From contig VGLH01000006.1 in NCBI GenBank assembly GCA_016866785.1, positions 1 to 60,395 of the forward strand: 60,395 bases of DNA, given 5' to 3'. The position numbers were made by a program, and so were the translations under genes. The notes under the pieces are model-generated. The model saw only the letters and a list, made by a program, of their open reading frames with translations. It had not been told where the DNA came from and did not search any database. This document shows positions 22,870 through 59,236 of the stretch, piece by piece. Every line of letters starts with the position of its first letter. Within the stretch, counting starts at the first letter, position 1. Origin of the DNA: Candidatus Poribacteria bacterium. GTDB lineage: Bacteria; Poribacteria; WGA-4E; GCA-2687025.

Positions 22870-24402
<1,533 letters not shown>

Positions 24403-24542
24403 TGCATATCAGCCCTCGGAACCTGTAGACGTCCGTCTCAGGGATCCCTCAGTCGCCTCAGGCTATTCGCCTCGTTCATTCCTCGTCACGGGAGTCCTTC
24501 GCCCAACCGGAGCGGCGTGGCAATCCCCGCGTTCGCGCGTGG

Positions 24543-24619
24543 GGGCCAGTAGCTCAGGTGGTTAGAGCGTACGCCTGATAAGCGTAAGGTCGGTGGTTCG
24601 AGTCCACCCTGGCCCACCA
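24543..24619 (+). tRNA. tRNA-Ile (anticodon GAT)
   Basis: 77 bases with encoded CCA. Acceptor GGGCCAG pairs with CTGGCCC; anticodon loop CTGATAA; T-arm GGTTCGAGTCC. Located in the 16S-23S spacer, the usual site. Confidence 0.96.
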
Positions 24620-24692
24620 GGATCCACTTGGACAGAACCCACGGCGGCACGCGTCGGCGGGTTGTGCGTGGTTGGCGGAGGTCGCTCGGTAT

Positions 24693-24768
24693 GGGGGTGT
24701 AGCTCAGTTGGGAGAGCGTCTGCTTTGCAAGCAGAAAGTCAGCGGTTCGAATCCGCTCATCTCCACCA
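24693..24768 (+). tRNA. tRNA-Ala (anticodon TGC)
   Basis: 76 bases with encoded CCA. Acceptor GGGGGTG pairs with CATCTCC with two G-U pairs; anticodon loop TTTGCAA; T-arm GGTTCGAATCC. Second spacer tRNA, in the classical Ile-Ala order. Confidence 0.96.
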
Positions 24769-24811
24769 GACAGAGACGACGCCGTCCGGGGCGTGCTGAA
24801 CGAGCTTGTGA

Positions 24812-24829
24812 TCTTTGACAGTTGAATAG
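24812..24829 (+). promoter_or_regulatory. rrn leader element (boxA-like), copy 2
   Basis: TCTTTGACAGTTGAATAG lies about 80 bases before the 23S gene and repeats the 16S leader element at 22685-22702. Confidence 0.5.
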
Positions 24830-24906
24830 CGCGTTGTTTCGCACAGAGAGCCGTGAGGATGTCTCTGGGGATCCCATCCCGCAAGGATGTGGGTTCCGAT
24901 GAAACC

Positions 24907-27757
<2,851 letters not shown>

Positions 27758-27903
27758 ACAATCTTCTTCATCGGTTTCCGACGCTTGCGGGACCTCCCCA
27801 GGTCCCAGACTTCGATCGGCTCCCCGCGAAACATCCGCGCATTCAACTGTCACTGTAGCGTACTGCGCGACGAGGCAGGATAGACGCCGTCGCGCAAGAG
27901 TGT

Positions 27904-28024
27904 GACCTCGGTGAGGATTGCGAAGGGGAAACACCCGTTCCCATTCCGAACACGGCAGTTAAGCCCTTCAGCGCCGATGATACTTTAGGGGCGACCCTCT
28001 GGGAAAGTAGGTATCGCCGAGGTC
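27904..28024 (+). rRNA. rrf: 5S ribosomal RNA
   Basis: About 120 bases, terminal helix GACCTCGG / CCGAGGTC, with the typical CCCATTCCGAACACGG loop B-helix III region. It follows the 23S by about 146 bases. Exact ends are uncertain by a base or two. Confidence 0.92.
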
Positions 28025-52859: not shown

Positions 52860-54404
52860 CTACGACTGCGTCTCGTTTCGGCTGAGCACCTTGTTGATGG
52901 CGTCGAGCAGCGCGATGACGCTCGCCTCGATGATGTCGGTGCTGCTTCCGACGCCGACGTAGTTCCGTCCGTCCTGACGGACTCGGACGGTCACTTCGCC
53001 GAGTGCGTCCTTGCCGCCGGTCACGGCGTGGATCGCGTAATCGGTCAGCTCCAGCTTGACGTTCGTGATGCGTTCCACGGCTCGGAACGACGCGTCGACG
53101 GGTCCGTCGCCGCTGGCAGCCTCCTCGAGCACCTGGTCATCTCGGCGGAGCCCGACCGTGGCGGTCGGAACCAGCTTGGTTCCACTGATCACCTGGACGT
53201 GCTCAAGAACGTACACCTGCGGCACGAGCCGAATCTGATCCTTGACGATGGCTTCCAGGTCGGCGTCATGGACCTCCTTCTTCTTGTCCGCCAGGGCGAG
53301 GAAACGCTCGTAGGTCTGGTCGAGCTGTTCATCCGTCAATTCATAGCCGAGCTCGCCCAGACGATGCCGCAGGGCGCGCCGACCGGAGCGCGGGCTCAGG
53401 ACGATCTTGCTCGCCTGGATGCCGACATCCGTCGGATCCATGATCTCGAACGTGTTCCGTTCCTTGAGGACGCCGTCCTGGTGGATGCCGGAGCTGTGCG
53501 CGAACGCATTGGCTCCGACAATCGCCTTGTTGGGCGGAACCGGCATGTTCATCAGCCGCGACACGAGGCGGCTCGCCGGGACGATCTCGCGCGTGTTGAC
53601 GCCTGTATGGGCGTCGCCGAACACGTCGCGGCGCGTCGCCAGCGCCATGACGCACTCTTCGAGGGACGTGTTCCCGGCGCGTTCGCCGACGCCGTTCACG
53701 GTGCACTCGATCTGCCGCGCGCCGTTGGCGACGGCGGCGAGGGCGTTCGACGTCGCCATGCCCAGGTCGTCGTGGCAATGGACGCTGATGCGGGCGTTCC
53801 GAGGGGCTGCCACTTCTTCGACGACCCGTCGGATCAGCTCGCCGAACTGCGTGGGAACCGCGTAGCCGACCGTGTCCGGGATGTTGATGATCGACGCGCC
53901 CGCCTCGATGGTCGCGGCGACGACTTCGTGCAAATAGACCGGATCGGTCCGGGTCGCGTCCATCGGCGAGAACTCGACCGTCTCGCACAGCGAACGCGCC
54001 AGCCGGACGGCGCGCACCGCCATTTCGAGGACCTCCTCGCGTCCCTTGCGCAGCTGCCCGCGCAGATGGATCTCCGAGGTTCCAACGAACGTGTGGATGC
54101 GCGGCTTCTCCGCGTGTTTGACCGCTTCCCAGCAGGCGACGATGTCGCGCTCGACGACTCGGGCGAGTCCGCAGACCTCGACGCCATGGACCTCTGCCGC
54201 GATCCGGCTCACCGCCTCGAAATCCGCTGGCGAGGAGATGGGAAAGCCGGCTTCGATGATGTCGACGTTCAGCCGGGCGAGCAGCTTGGCGATCTCGAAC
54301 TTCTCGTCGATGCTCAGGGCGGCTCCCGGCGATTGCTCGCCATCCCGCAGCGTCGTGTCGAAGATGTGGACCCGGTTCGCGTCGGGAATCCCTGCGCTAG
54401 GCAT
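52860..54404 (-). CDS. leuA: 2-isopropylmalate synthase
   Basis: The first enzyme of leucine synthesis, condensing 2-oxoisovalerate and acetyl-CoA. It has 514 residues, the size of the LeuA1 class. FDTTLRDGEQSPGAALS (metal site), IEAGFPISSPADFE, HCHDDLGMATSNALAAV (metal His pair) and the C-terminal regulatory domain (from about 400) are present, so leucine feedback is likely. GAGGA precedes ATG 54404. It follows a short upstream ORF by 11 bases. Confidence 0.94.
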   Translation of the reverse strand: MPSAGIPDANRVHIFDTTLRDGEQSPGAALSIDEKFEIAKLLARLNVDIIEAGFPISSPADFEAVSRIAAEVHGVEVCGLARVVERDIVACWEAVKHAEKPRIHTFVGTSEIHLRGQLRKGREEVLEMAVRAVRLARSLCETVEFSPMDATRTDPVYLHEVVAATIEAGASIINIPDTVGYAVPTQFGELIRRVVEEVAAPRNARISVHCHDDLGMATSNALAAVANGARQIECTVNGVGERAGNTSLEECVMALATRRDVFGDAHTGVNTREIVPASRLVSRLMNMPVPPNKAIVGANAFAHSSGIHQDGVLKERNTFEIMDPTDVGIQASKIVLSPRSGRRALRHRLGELGYELTDEQLDQTYERFLALADKKKEVHDADLEAIVKDQIRLVPQVYVLEHVQVISGTKLVPTATVGLRRDDQVLEEAASGDGPVDASFRAVERITNVKLELTDYAIHAVTGGKDALGEVTVRVRQDGRNYVGVGSSTDIIEASVIALLDAINKVLSRNETQS

Positions 54405-54513: not shown

Positions 54514-55275
54514 TCACCTCCTTCCTGTGTCGGCGCGCCGTCCACCGAAGACGGCGATCTCAAAGACCTTCATGTAGCAGTCGACGTCCTGATAGCCGAT
54601 CTCCCGAAGCCATTCGCACTGCGTCTCGACGGGTGCGAGGATGTTCGCCGCCTTGTCGGGGCGGTAGTAGTACTCGCGGGCGATCTCGTCGCGCGTCTTG
54701 CCGCTGGGCTGAGCCGAGTGCCACGCGAAGAGCGCGTCGATGAACAAGCTATCGAAGAGCTCCGTGACCCACGCCGTCGGTGACGACACGTGCTCGATGT
54801 GCACAAACGCCGCTCCTGGCGAGAGGAGCTCGTGAACCTCGGCGTAAAGCGCTCGCTTCCGCTCGTCCGGCAGATGGTGGATGGCGAACCCGGAGACGAT
54901 GGCGTCGTACGGGGCATCGTCACGGATCGACTCGACCCACTGAGGTTCGCGCAGATCCGCTTTGGTCAGAACCACGCGCTCTCCGACATCGTGCATCGCC
55001 TCGGCTGCGGCGGTGAGCATCGCGTCGGAGAAGTCCACGAACACGCCCCGCGCAGCCGGGAACGCTTGCAGTAGAGACGCTCCCAGCAATCCGTTGCCGC
55101 ATCCGAGATCGAGAACCCGCTCGACGCGTTCGCGGCTGGCTCTGACGACCCGCACCATCGTGTCGATCTGCTCGTTCGCCCGCGGGATGGCAGAGCGGAT
55201 GCCCTTCAGGTACGTCTTCGCCAGTTCCGGCGACTTCCACACATCCGCCATCACCCTCTCCCTTCGGTCCGCCAT
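54514..55275 (-). CDS. Class I SAM-dependent methyltransferase
   Basis: A 253-residue methyltransferase. The SAM site is RVERVLDLGCGNGLLGASLL; the acid after motif II is in GVFVDFSDAMLTAAAEAM; later YDAIVSGFAIHHLPDERKRA is motif IV/post-I. Substrate unknown. The start region carries a 24-base in-frame duplication (MADRRERV then MADVWKSP): ATG 55275 and ATG 55251 each have the same ribosome binding site. The first ATG overlaps the stop of the DUF559 pseudogene (TGATG). Confidence 0.85.
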   Translation of the reverse strand: MADRRERVMADVWKSPELAKTYLKGIRSAIPRANEQIDTMVRVVRASRERVERVLDLGCGNGLLGASLLQAFPAARGVFVDFSDAMLTAAAEAMHDVGERVVLTKADLREPQWVESIRDDAPYDAIVSGFAIHHLPDERKRALYAEVHELLSPGAAFVHIEHVSSPTAWVTELFDSLFIDALFAWHSAQPSGKTRDEIAREYYYRPDKAANILAPVETQCEWLREIGYQDVDCYMKVFEIAVFGGRRADTGRR

Positions 55276-55299
55276 CACCCTCTCCCTTCAGGGAGAGGG
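55244..55299. repeat. Palindromic repeat and tandem 21-base copies
   Basis: Two copies of TCCGCCATCACCCTCTCCCTT at 55244-55264 and 55268-55288 (24-base period), the second continuing into the palindrome CCCTCTCCCT-TC-AGGGAGAGGG (55278-55299). It lies across the methyltransferase start and the end of the DUF559 frame. Confidence 0.7.
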
Positions 55300-55679
55300 C
55301 AGGGGTGAGGGTCCTTCATGCCAACACGCTCCTGATATGCCTGCCATATTGCGCTTTGCACAGACTCGAACTCACCCATCACCTGGTTGTTCCAGAACCG
55401 AGGGACGCGGAATCCTAGAGCCGTCAGGTGCTCATCTCGCCGCCGGTCGTCTTCCGTCGTGTCTGCATGATGTCCGCCGTCCAGCTCAATGACGGGCCCT
55501 CGCTTGCGGCACACGAAATCGACGACGTACCTCCCGATCGGGTGCTGCCGACGGAACCGCGCTTCTGCGAATGCCTCGCTGCGGAGCCAACGTCACAGCT
55601 TTCGTTCGGCATCAGTCTGGCTCTGTCGCAACCCCCGCGCGATGCGTGTCTTCCAGTGGACCGATGACGGTTCGCGCAT
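55275..55679 (-). pseudogene. DUF559-domain nuclease-like gene, broken by a nonsense codon
   Basis: A 134-codon DUF559 frame (endonuclease-like, Vsr/restriction fold): MREPSSVHWKTRIARGLRQS, then QTDAERKL, then TGA at codon 29 (55593-55595) where the family has Trp (usually ...AERRLW), then RWLRSEAFAEARFRRQHPIG, RYVVDFVCRKRGPVIELDGG, GFRVPRFWNNQV. One base (TGG to TGA) kills it. The C-terminus HPCPLPEGRG is encoded by the palindromic repeat. AGGA precedes ATG 55679. A downstream restart is possible (a frame opens at 55514), but the N-terminal part would be lost. Confidence 0.7.
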
Positions 55680-55703: not shown

Positions 55704-58700
55704 CTACCCTCTCCCTGAAGGGAGAGGGTTCCCGGGCCCTCCTGACGATTCTGCAACTCGCTCCACGCTGAGGGTTGCGGCGTGCTCACCGAGGCTGTGC
55801 TCCTTGACGAACGCATCGCTGGATGGGCTCTCGTCCACTCGGGCGGTCAGCGTCTCAGCGACCACGTAGTCGCGGAACCGCGCGAACGCCTGAGCCACGT
55901 CTCCGGCGCTCTGAACCGTCAGGACGATCCGGTCGGCAATGTGGAAGCCAGCTTCCTTGCGCATCGTTTGGATGCGGTTCACGAGCTCTCGCGCGAGCCC
56001 CTCAAGGCGGAGGTCATCGCTGATGGCAGTGTCCAGCGCGACGAAGGCTTCGTCCTCCTGGACGACGGCAAACGGCTCGCGACCCTCGAGGCGGATATCC
56101 ACGTCGTCCGATGCCACGACGTACTCCGCGCCGTCGATGGACAGCCGGACCTCGCCGTTCGCGGCGAGCTTGGAGCGCAGCGAGACGGGGTCGGTTCCCG
56201 ATCCGAGCTCGCGCGCGATGGCTTGCACTGCCTTTCCGAACTTGGGTCCCAGCGTGCGGAAGTTCGCCTTCACGGTGAACTCGGCGTAGTCCTCCAGGCG
56301 ATCCCCCCACTCGACCGACTTGACGTTGAGCTCGTCCAGAACCGTTGCGAGGAGACTGGTCAGCGCGTGCCGTTCGTCGTCGGTCAGTCCGCCGACAACG
56401 ATCCGCGACAGCGGTTGGCGAACGCGGATTTTCCGATCGTTCCGCGCTGCGAGACCCATGCGCACGACCTTCCGGGCGAGCTCCATCGAACGCTCCAGGT
56501 CGGCGTCGATCAGCGATTCGTCGGGCTCGGGGTAGTCGACGAAGTGGACGCTCTCGGGAGCCGCCGGGTCGAGCGACGTAACGAGGTTCCCGTAGATCTC
56601 TTCCGCAAGAAACGGGGCGAACGGAGCCAGCAGCGTCGCCACTCCCACCAGCACGTCGTGCAGCGTCCCAAACGCGGCGAGCTTGTCCCGTTCCACGTTC
56701 CAGAACGCTCGGTGCGCCCTCTCCTCGGAGTCGTCGTCCGACGCGCCGGTTCCCCAGAAGCGGTCGCGGCAGCGGCGGACGTACCAGTTGCTGAGATCGT
56801 CCACGAACTCCTCAAGGGCTCGCGTCGCCTGGGTGATCTGATAGTCCTCCATCTCGGTGCGGACCTTGCGGACCGTCGAGTGGAACCGAGACAGGATCCA
56901 TCGATCCATGAGCGGCCGAGACTTCGGAGCCGGGGCTCCGCTCTGCGGATCGACGCCGTCCGCGTTCGCATAGAGGACGAAGAACCCGTAGACGTTGTAG
57001 AGGGTTCCCAGGAACCCCTTGACGACATCACTGACGGCGTCTTCGCCGAAAACCCGTCGCTGCCACGGCGGCGCGACGGTGTAGAAGTACCACCGCGCGG
57101 CGTCGGCTCCCTGCCGGTCGAGCACGCGGTTCGGATCGACGGCGTTGCCTCGGCTCTTGCTCATCTTCTGCCCGTCGGCTCCCAAGACGAGCTCCAGGCA
57201 GAGGCAGTTGCGGTAGGCGACGTCGTCGTAGAGGAACGCCCCGGTCGCCAGCAGGCTGTAGAACCAGCCGCGCGTCTGGTCGATGGCTTCGGAGATGAAG
57301 TCAGCCGGATAGCTGGCGGCGCGCCGTTCCTCGTTCTCGAAGGGCGCGTGCCATTGCGCGGTGTGGGCGCAGCCGGAGTCGAGCCACGCGTCGGCGACCT
57401 CCGGGATACGGCGCATCGTGCCGGAACACTCCGGACACGGGAACTCCACGGCGTCGATGTAGGGGCGATGGAACTCCAGGTCCGCCGGCGCATCGGGCGC
57501 GAGCTCCCGCAACTCGCTCTCGCTGCCGACACACAGCGTGCGGTTGCAGTCCGTGCAGCGCCAGATGGGCAGAGGCGTGCCCCAGTAGCGCTCGCGAGAG
57601 ACCGCCCAATCGACGTTGTTGTCGAGCCAATCACCGAACCGCCCTCGCCGGATGTGATCCGGATACCAGCGGACCGAGTCGTTCAGCTCGACCATGCGGT
57701 CCTTGTACGCCGTCGTTTTGATGAACCACGAGCCGCGGGCGTAGTAGAGCAGCGGCGTGTCGCAGCGCCAGCAGAAGGGATAGTCGTGGACGTATTCCTC
57801 CACCTTGTGCACGACGCCGCGTTCCATCAGATGTTGGGTGATCCGAGGATCGGCGTCCTTGACAAACACGCCCGCCCAGGGCTCGGCTTCCGGCGTGAAC
57901 TTACCCTCGGTGTCCACGAGTTGTACCAGCGGCAGGTCGTTCCGGCGGGCGACCTCGTAGTCGTCCTGCCCAAACGCAGGCGCGATGTGGACGATGCCGG
58001 TTCCGTCGTCCAGCGTGACGAAATCCCCCGCGACGACGTAGTGCGCCGGCTTGTCCGGCGTCGTGAACTGGAACATCGGCTCGTAGCGCACGCCGACGAG
58101 CTCGCTGCCGCGAACCGTTCCGGCGACGCGCGCGTCCTCGCGTTCGCCCAGCACCCGGTTCACGAGCGCGTTGGCGAGGATGAGCGTCTCGCCGCCCACC
58201 TCGACGCGGGCGTAGTCGGCATCGGGGTCAACGGCGAGGGCGACGTTCGAGGGCAGTGTCCAAGGCGTCGTCGTCCAGACGAGGAACGAGGTGTTGGGCT
58301 CATCCTCGAGCCGGAACCGGACGTAGAGCGACGGGTCGGCGACCTCGCGGTATCCCTGCGCCACCTCGTGGCTCGACAGTGCGGTTCCACAGCGCGGACA
58401 GTAGGGGACGACCTTGTGACCTTGATACAGCAAGCCGGCGTCCCAGAACCGCCTCAGGATGGACCAGACCGACTCGATGTAGCTGTTCGTGAGGGTGATG
58501 TAGGGGTCGTCCATATCGACCCAGAAGCCGATTCGCTCGGTGGTTCTGCGCCAATCGGTTTCGTACTCGAAGACGCTCCGCTTGCACTCCTCGACGAACT
58601 CGCGGATGCCGAATGCCTCGATCTGCTTCTTGCCGTCGAGTCCGAGCCGCTTCTCGACTTCGATCTCGACGGGCAAGCCGTGGGTGTCCCAGCCGCCCTT

Positions 58701-58955
58701 GCGCTGGACGTAGTGCCCCATCATCGCCTTGTAACGGCAGAAGGCATCCTTCATGACGCGCGCGAGGATATGGTGGACGCCCGGCTTCCCATTCGCCGTC
58801 GGCGGACCTTCGAGGAACACGAACGGCGGACAGCCCTTCCGAGCCTCCATGCTGCGACGGAAGATGTCGCGCGTGCGCCATGATTCGAGCACCCGCGACT
58901 CGAGCTCCGGGAAGTGGAGCCCCGGTTTGACCTCTCGGAATCTACTCCCTGCCAT
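55704..58955 (-). CDS. ileS: Isoleucyl-tRNA synthetase
   Basis: A 1083-residue class I synthetase of the longer (type 2, eukaryote-like) form. The HIGH motif is HHIL (about residue 60, in PPTANGKPGVHHILARVM); KMSKS is at about residue 597 (DGQKMSKSRGN). The editing domain lies between (VWTTTPWTLPSNVALAV ... GIVHIAPAFGQDD). Zinc-type cysteine pairs are seen (CPRCG, CWRCD, CTDCN, CPECS). Start ATG 58955 (MAGSRFREVK) with GGAGG about 8 bases upstream. The last nine residues (GNPLPSGRG) and the stop are supplied by a palindromic repeat. It is preceded by an attenuator-like leader. Confidence 0.94.
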   Translation of the reverse strand: MAGSRFREVKPGLHFPELESRVLESWRTRDIFRRSMEARKGCPPFVFLEGPPTANGKPGVHHILARVMKDAFCRYKAMMGHYVQRKGGWDTHGLPVEIEVEKRLGLDGKKQIEAFGIREFVEECKRSVFEYETDWRRTTERIGFWVDMDDPYITLTNSYIESVWSILRRFWDAGLLYQGHKVVPYCPRCGTALSSHEVAQGYREVADPSLYVRFRLEDEPNTSFLVWTTTPWTLPSNVALAVDPDADYARVEVGGETLILANALVNRVLGEREDARVAGTVRGSELVGVRYEPMFQFTTPDKPAHYVVAGDFVTLDDGTGIVHIAPAFGQDDYEVARRNDLPLVQLVDTEGKFTPEAEPWAGVFVKDADPRITQHLMERGVVHKVEEYVHDYPFCWRCDTPLLYYARGSWFIKTTAYKDRMVELNDSVRWYPDHIRRGRFGDWLDNNVDWAVSRERYWGTPLPIWRCTDCNRTLCVGSESELRELAPDAPADLEFHRPYIDAVEFPCPECSGTMRRIPEVADAWLDSGCAHTAQWHAPFENEERRAASYPADFISEAIDQTRGWFYSLLATGAFLYDDVAYRNCLCLELVLGADGQKMSKSRGNAVDPNRVLDRQGADAARWYFYTVAPPWQRRVFGEDAVSDVVKGFLGTLYNVYGFFVLYANADGVDPQSGAPAPKSRPLMDRWILSRFHSTVRKVRTEMEDYQITQATRALEEFVDDLSNWYVRRCRDRFWGTGASDDDSEERAHRAFWNVERDKLAAFGTLHDVLVGVATLLAPFAPFLAEEIYGNLVTSLDPAAPESVHFVDYPEPDESLIDADLERSMELARKVVRMGLAARNDRKIRVRQPLSRIVVGGLTDDERHALTSLLATVLDELNVKSVEWGDRLEDYAEFTVKANFRTLGPKFGKAVQAIARELGSGTDPVSLRSKLAANGEVRLSIDGAEYVVASDDVDIRLEGREPFAVVQEDEAFVALDTAISDDLRLEGLARELVNRIQTMRKEAGFHIADRIVLTVQSAGDVAQAFARFRDYVVAETLTARVDESPSSDAFVKEHSLGEHAATLSVERVAESSGGPGNPLPSGRG
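55707..55728. repeat. Palindromic repeat at end of ileS
   Basis: CCCTCTCCCT-GA-AGGGAGAGGG, 10-bp arms, the same core as at 55278-55299. It encodes the end of IleS on the minus strand and is flanked by TCACCCTA. Confidence 0.75.
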
Positions 58956-59016
58956 GTCGCTGCCTCCGGCGCACGGGACGATCATCGGTTCTTACGGAGC
59001 CGTGTCCTGACGCAAG

Positions 59017-59050
59017 AAAGCCCATCATCATTGGGCTGATGATGGGCTTT
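59017..59050 (-). terminator. Attenuator terminator hairpin upstream of ileS
   Basis: Perfect 13-bp stem (AAAGCCCATCATC / GATGATGGGCTTT) with an 8-base loop, about 62 bases before the ileS start and followed by a short T-rich stretch (TTTCTT). It is symmetric, so it could also stop plus-strand transcription. Its 5' arm can pair instead with an upstream segment. Confidence 0.75.
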
Positions 59051-59118
59051 CGTTCCACACTAGCGAGTGCCATCAGGCGGCGGGTGCTCGCTCCCCATCC
59101 TCAGCCCAACCGGGCTGA
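59031..59118 (-). promoter_or_regulatory. ileS leader: mutually exclusive hairpins (1:2, 2:3, 3:4)
   Basis: On the minus strand, region 1 (TCAGCCC, 59112-59118) pairs with region 2 (GGGCTGA, 59101-59107) across a GGTT loop. Region 2 extended (TTGGGCTGAGGATGGG, 59094-59109) can instead pair with region 3 (CCCATCATCAGCCCAA, 59031-59046) at 15 of 16 positions. Region 3 is part of the terminator at 59017-59050. This is the architecture of a leader-peptide attenuator. Confidence 0.65.
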
Positions 59119-59159
59119 ATAATAAGGGCGAGAAGACCGAGAGTTGCCGCGAACCGCAT
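59073..59159 (-). CDS. ileS leader peptide with tandem Ile codons (28 residues)
   Basis: A 28-residue frame, starting MRFAATLGLLALIIQPGWAE and ending in GERAPAA. Two adjacent ATT (Ile) codons lie immediately before region 1 of the attenuator. A possible ribosome binding site (GAGTGAG) is 5 bases upstream. The sequence also resembles a signal peptide, so an alternative reading is a remnant of an exported protein gene. The stop (59073-59075) lies between regions 2 and 3. Confidence 0.55.
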   Translation of the reverse strand: MRFAATLGLLALIIQPGWAEDGERAPAA

Positions 59160-59207
59160 GGCGCTCACTCAAGATGAGAACAGTCCGAACTACGATTACT
59201 GGTGCTA

Positions 59208-59236
59208 AGCATACCACTCCGCCACGGGCGAGTCAA
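59208..59236 (-). promoter_or_regulatory. Promoter of the ileS leader transcript
   Basis: On the minus strand: TTGACT (59231-59236), 17-base spacer, TATGCT (59208-59213). Transcription would start near 59200, about 245 bases before ileS. Confidence 0.65.

Follow-up and report, generated by a model that had tools for sequence, protein, structure and literature searches.

Leader-peptide attenuation is a textbook device of amino-acid operons in Escherichia coli, where leader peptides belong to pheST and the ilv operons, and ileS is a textbook T-box gene. In the pheM-pheST system of E. coli, a synthetase gene is itself under a leader-peptide attenuator, and in ilvGMEDA/ilvL and thrL a single leader reads several amino acids matching the products of the operon. 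The leader described here lies before ileS in the Poribacteria, an uncultured, sponge-associated bacterial phylum. It resembles pheM-pheST in combining a synthetase gene, a leader peptide rich in cognate codons, and an antiterminator/terminator pair, but the amino acid and gene are Ile and ileS rather than Phe and pheST, and pheST of Poribacteria stands behind a T-box. The reading of several amino acids by one leader, which is probable here, recalls ilvL and thrL, although those leaders serve one-pathway operons whereas here a synthetase is joined to leuA (leader family f1, that of the DNA studied here) or to aroF and leuA (family f3). Other parallels come from outside E. coli. Leader-peptide attenuators have been predicted for Streptomyces trpS and leuS (PMC1262725), likewise synthetase genes outside the Proteobacteria, but ileS of Actinobacteria has a translational T-box (PMC1262725) in place of the leader peptide found in Poribacteria. 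For hisS/hisZ of bacilli, a T-box before a synthetase gene has been replaced by a leader peptide (PMC2965389), which is a precedent for exchange between the two devices; that case concerns His codons in Firmicutes after gene duplication, whereas ours concerns Ile codons in Poribacteria, where ileS is single-copy in nearly all genomes. The T-box that ileS carries in Firmicutes (PMC2494555) and Actinobacteria (PMC1262725) shares with the poribacterial leader its gene, the uncharged tRNA-Ile signal, and the logic of induction by starvation, but the T-box RNA binds tRNA directly, whereas the sensor in Poribacteria would be the translating ribosome.

The window, by which we mean the whole stretch of 60,395 nucleotides that was analyzed, comes from a draft genome of 4.35 Mb, in which it is contig 6. 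The relatives of this genome are Poribacteria, and the firmicute setting implied by a preliminary description of this DNA has to be abandoned. The ileS gene (55704 to 58955, minus strand; TIGR00392, 919.9 bits against a cut-off of 621) starts at ATG 58955, as judged from homology and a Shine-Dalgarno sequence GGAGG. Downstream on the same strand lies leuA, encoding 2-isopropylmalate synthase (52860 to 54404; TIGR00973, 709 bits against a cut-off of 599), so that the gene set of the window is ileS..leuA without aroF. Neither a promoter-like site nor a convincing terminator lies in the interval between the two genes, and leuA is a probable further target of the ileS leader. Within this interval, at window positions 54514 to 55514, are a class I methyltransferase and a fragment resembling DUF559 (32.7 bits against a cut-off of 218), which are apparently an insertion into the ileS-leuA neighborhood. 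Elsewhere, the window carries on its plus strand a complete rRNA operon, 16S-tRNA-Ile(GAT)-tRNA-Ala(TGC)-23S-5S (22870 to 28022).

Upstream of ileS, all on the minus strand, a sigma-70-type promoter with an extended -10 TG (TTGACT-17-TGnTATGCT, 9/12 consensus matches) at 59208 to 59236 is the sole promoter-like site within 1 kb, and relatives carry TTGACA/TAnnnT-like promoters at the equivalent position. It precedes a leader peptide ORF of 28 codons, MRFAATLGLLALIIQPGWAEDGERAPAA, which ends in UGA (59073 to 59159). The control codons, Leu-Gly-Leu-Leu-Ala-Leu-Ile-Ile (59118 to 59141), lie where relatives have their Ile cluster; six of these eight specify Ile or Leu, and the two ATT (Ile) codons at 59123-59118 adjoin region 1. 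Region 1, TCAGCCC (59112 to 59118), pairs with GGGCTGA (59107-59101) at 7/7 positions (-12.0 kcal/mol), and related f1 leaders have a similar GCCCC-loop-GGGGC hairpin after the control codons. Region 2, TTGGGCTGAGGATGGG (59094 to 59109), is the 5' strand of an antiterminator and pairs at 15/16 positions with region 3, CCCATCATCAGCCCAA (59031 to 59046), which also pairs with region 4 in a 13-bp putative terminator hairpin, AAAGCCCATCATC..GATGATGGGCTTT (59017 to 59050; -26.8 kcal/mol), which ends 61 nt upstream of the ileS start codon. Antiterminator and terminator are mutually exclusive, with region 3 as their common strand, and the predicted folding of the entire leader is 5.95 s.d. better than that of dinucleotide shuffles. 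The promoter, the ORF with its adjacent Ile codons, and the 1:2 and 2:3 pairings of the preliminary description are reproduced base for base. The 13-bp hairpin that it placed before ileS is likewise confirmed, but the U-tract that follows (CTTTCTTGCG) is poor, which is why the hairpin escapes a scan for consensus terminators. Most relatives with an equivalent hairpin have good U-tracts, and in the copy in the window the poor U-tract is the weakest element.

From its sequence, we are confident that this arrangement represents a classical ribosome-mediated (leader-peptide) transcription attenuator that would control ileS and probably also leuA, and that probably reads Leu as well as Ile. RNA polymerase would initiate at the promoter, and a ribosome would translate the leader ORF. 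With charged tRNA-Ile (and probably also tRNA-Leu) plentiful, the ribosome would reach the UGA and the 1:2 hairpin would close, leaving region 3 free for region 4, so that transcription would end before ileS. Under shortage, the ribosome would stall at Leu-Leu-Ala-Leu-Ile-Ile and cover region 1, together with the first bases of region 2 given the usual footprint; region 2 would then capture region 3 as it emerges, no terminator would form, and ileS would be transcribed. We infer the stalling, the termination, and the physiological response, as well as the reading of Leu beside Ile, from this layout. Folding with region 1 masked, which the preliminary description had suggested as a check, bears the scheme out in part. 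With the bases up to 59107 masked, as by a ribosome, RNA that extends through region 3 adopts the antiterminator fold (-30.9 kcal/mol), and before region 4 exists the remainder of region 2 forms with region 3 a structure of -24 to -36 kcal/mol, but after synthesis of region 4 the full transcript has its energy minimum in the terminator even with region 1 masked. Since the terminator is favored at equilibrium, the switch has to be a kinetic one, like that of classical attenuators.

The same design recurs across the phylum. We examined the DNA upstream of ileS at 76 Poribacteria loci, with IleS identities down to approximately 40%, for an ORF with two or more Ile codons in the final 25 ahead of region 2, region 2 being defined by its complementarity to the 5' arm of a terminator; terminators were located by a search anchored on region 3. 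This combination of ORF, Ile codons, region 2, and terminator is present at 69 of the 76 loci, with 2 to 10 Ile codons among the last 25 of the leader ORF. The closest IleS relatives of the window are only 63-67% identical, and the conserved leader features have therefore outlasted a long divergence. The preliminary description had named comparison with relatives as the way to check its leader-peptide reading, and the ORF, the clustered Ile codons, and the alternative pairing with its covariation all persist in them. Among the other seven loci, two lie at contig ends (L030, L113) and five have no recognizable leader (L126, L140, L146, L153, L156). In L146 and L153 the promoter is retained with just a short leader ahead of ileS and the attenuator is gone, an apparent loss of regulation; the leader at L139 looks frameshifted. 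A number of f6 and f7 genomes (G022, G035, G036, G014, and G010) encode a divergent IleS of about 42% identity whose match breaks in two around query residue 150, which suggests an insertion there.

The leader peptides themselves are unrelated in sequence between families and retain their Ile clusters. Leaders before ileS include MLTITVIISSVLISIIILIDGG (also MLTITVIISSVLISIIILIDGGQKA) in f8, RLSIGIISIIIGIPRDGG (also ..NIRLSIGIISIIIGIPRDGG..) in f6, ..AVLIIIIP in f7, ..RAISIIIAIRRAVVG in f2, ..LLGIIIGLLRAGGG.. in f4, and NDDIIIIRLLQTMVG (also ..ALNDDIIIIRLLQTMVG..) in f10, the only other class. Their codon content follows the genes downstream. The order ileS..leuA is preserved in f1, f3, and f10, with leuA after ileS in f1, whereas neither leuA nor aroF, which encodes DAHP synthase (NF006421/TIGR01361), follows ileS in f2, f6, f7, and f8. 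The conserved cluster ileS-aroF-leuA (L189, L190, L191) is that of f3, and in f10 aroF and leuA follow with an extra methyltransferase. The f3 leaders, ARIYIFLFWLSYFYALGLF and ELIGFLLTRFWPFFYASIL, bring Ile, Leu, Phe, Tyr, and Trp together despite their diverged DNA. Longer upstream stretches place aroF ahead of leuA at several loci where leuA is separate, and such aroF-leuA units have upstream of aroF an attenuator of their own of the same design, a Phe/Tyr/Trp/Leu-rich peptide followed by a terminator. This second attenuator family, before aroF(-leuA), was seen at L238-L243 and L248-L257, in f2, f6, f7, and f8 genomes (e.g., LYLYLYLYLYSYARW, followed by its stop codon). Further aroF leaders are MQKLKHTTIYSIFSYLFYLWTLFTFGLYPFRCSGGRWC (G016), ..LNAALGLYLYLYLYLYSYARW (G025), ..YRSYYSWALYALLLYLRPNDGL.. 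(G014), and ..LYFFYLYLFLLYLRCDGGR.. (G022), and several aroF terminators carry the GCCCATCAT core of the ileS terminator. Counted over full leader peptides, stand-alone ileS leaders contain 14.6% Ile and 3.8% Phe/Tyr/Trp, against 4.0% Ile and 21.0% Phe/Tyr/Trp in separate aroF-leuA leaders (Fisher p = 6e-14 on codon counts, a value uncorrected for shared ancestry); the latter leaders contain 16.4% Leu. The f1 leaders contain 8.9% Ile and 13.0% Leu with no aromatic excess, and f1 genomes are without a close aroF orthologue, having just a paralogue of about 40% identity elsewhere. Codons and genes thus match as Ile for ileS, Phe/Tyr/Trp/Leu for aroF-leuA, and all five in f3; the match is partial in f10, which has no aromatic codons adjoining region 2 despite its downstream aroF. 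This gene-tracking codon content amounts to an unplanned natural experiment that supports codon sensing.

Whether Leu is part of the signal is where the closest competing explanation lies. The leader may read Ile only, in which case its Leu codons would reflect the general hydrophobicity of a short peptide and leuA would lie outside the regulated unit, and we consider this possible, at somewhat less than an even chance. It agrees with the essentially Ile-only ileS leaders of f2, f6, f7, and f8, and with the DUF559 fragment and methyltransferase that separate ileS from leuA in the window. Leu is, however, more frequent where leuA follows ileS (13.0% in f1 and 16.2% in fused loci, against 9.0% where it does not; p = 0.049, at codon level), and separate aroF-leuA operons have Leu-rich leaders of their own. 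The sensing of Leu is accordingly less certain than that of Ile. The preliminary description had regarded its two Ile codons as a weak point, and the leader of the window taken alone is indeed not enriched (2 Ile in 28 codons, p = 0.34), but it fits among the Ile- and Leu-containing leaders of leuA-containing operons, and the presence of leuA in the operon, with both amino acids read, would account for there being just two.

Far less probable is that the hairpin is a constitutive intrinsic terminator or a stray intergenic structure and that the ORF and the 2:3 complementarity arose by chance. Intergenic hairpins are common, and the absence of Ile enrichment in the single peptide would suit such an account. 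Against it, 20,000 mononucleotide shufflings of the 152 nt upstream never gave 15 of 16 paired positions, and across the phylum the hairpin and region 2 are found before ileS jointly with the ORF and its Ile cluster, with covariation. Region 3 is almost invariant (GCCCATCAY), and region 2 tracks it, with CAC opposite GTG and CAT opposite ATG; where region 3 starts with A rather than G, region 2 and region 4 both end in T. Across 31 distinct sets of regions 2, 3, and 4, the 2:3 helix has 95.7% standard pairs and 12 two-sided changes, with 0 of 500 shuffles as high, and the 3:4 helix has 87.5% standard pairs and 14 two-sided changes, again with no shuffle as high; many f2 terminators contain a 2-nt bulge. 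Pairing collapses when the registers are slid. Because complementarity was itself used to locate regions 2 and 4, these percentages are inflated, and better evidence comes from the two-sided changes at the ends of the helices. In 16 of 17 representatives, region 2 also has a predicted upstream pairing partner (mean P > 0.7), giving a 1:2 arm, and in many lineages this partner lies near the ORF start; in f2 it is a conserved CTTACCACA coding for Leu-Thr-Thr. Conservation thus refutes in the main an origin by chance. The attenuator is real and phylum-wide, and its mechanism is known in kind.

Nor do we give much credence to the idea that the product of the ORF is a functional small peptide, secreted or in the membrane and resembling a Sec signal peptide, with the hairpin as the terminator of the ORF. 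On inspection, the MRFAATLGLLALIIQPGWA-EDGE sequence has signal-peptide character, but the peptides of relatives are not signal-like (RIIIAIRRAVVG, NDDIIIIRLLQTMVG) and have amino-acid composition alone in common, and in every lineage the 5' arm of the hairpin is complementary to the leader ORF itself. Control by a T-box or another ligand-binding riboswitch is almost certainly wrong, even though T-boxes commonly control ileS in other bacteria (PMC2494555, PMC1262725) and are present in Poribacteria, as the conserved feature is a set of translated Ile codons rather than an RNA aptamer and, in agreement with the preliminary description, no T-box (RF00230) matches the leader of the window at the gathering score or at E <= 5. 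None of the Rfam leader-peptide families (Trp, His, Leu, Thr, and similar leaders) was found in the leader at E <= 5 either. The sole weak Rfam match was to the Burkholderia sRNA ncS011 (RF02867; 21.9 bits against a 48-bit cut-off), which spans the leader and rests mostly on the terminator; its source paper describes an uncharacterized sRNA without a link to ileS.

Leader-peptide attenuation of ileS can also be set against the T-boxes of the same organisms. T-box RNAs occur in 79 of 85 Poribacteria genomes, usually one or two per genome, and in all 15 stretches examined their targets are pheST and ilvBN or ilvD-ilvB. The T-box loci include G000:C10:11235-11459 (L163) and L164-L178, the G000 copy scoring 85.7 bits, under the Rfam cut-off of 93. 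As ileS has a leader peptide and pheST and ilv have T-boxes, the targets of the two devices are partly swapped in Poribacteria. We put about even weight on a history in which an ancestral ileS-aroF-leuA cluster had one leader reading Ile, Leu, and aromatic codons; its break-up would have been accompanied by duplication or re-evolution of the attenuator, each half with its own codons, the family of the window would have lost aroF and kept Ile and Leu, and sensing would have been partly exchanged relative to E. coli and Firmicutes, with a leader peptide for ileS and T-boxes for pheST and ilv(D)BN.

Outside the phylum, seven Cloacimonadota genomes (L202, L203, L210, L217, L211, L222, L088) have short Ile-rich ORFs before ileS (GIIIIN, IIIIII). 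Their leaders read M.KDIEKIIGIIIINSPPCRF or close variants in four genomes, and MKIIIKIIIIRNP, MKINIIIIIIFNP, and MKVNIKIGLIFIGIFNL, followed by a GC-hairpin and T-run unlike the Poribacteria terminator in sequence, and control of ileS by leader peptides may therefore be more widespread or of multiple origin. A literature search found no report linking ileS or Poribacteria with leader-peptide attenuation; most subscription journals lay outside this search, and such absence is not proof. Within the searchable literature, such attenuation of this gene and in this phylum appears to be undescribed, as do the partial exchange of targets with T-boxes and the way in which leader codons track operon content.

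In conclusion, the leader very probably lets the cell sense isoleucine shortage, as judged from codons and pairing. A single uncultured phylum has both T-boxes and leader peptides, on rearranged targets. Leader codons change with the genes that they control, and regulatory evolution can be read from sequence alone. Because gene order and leader codons vary together, predictions of attenuation become testable by comparison and by simple reporter fusions, including which codons are read, how specificity evolves, and how a T-box gives way to a leader peptide or the reverse.
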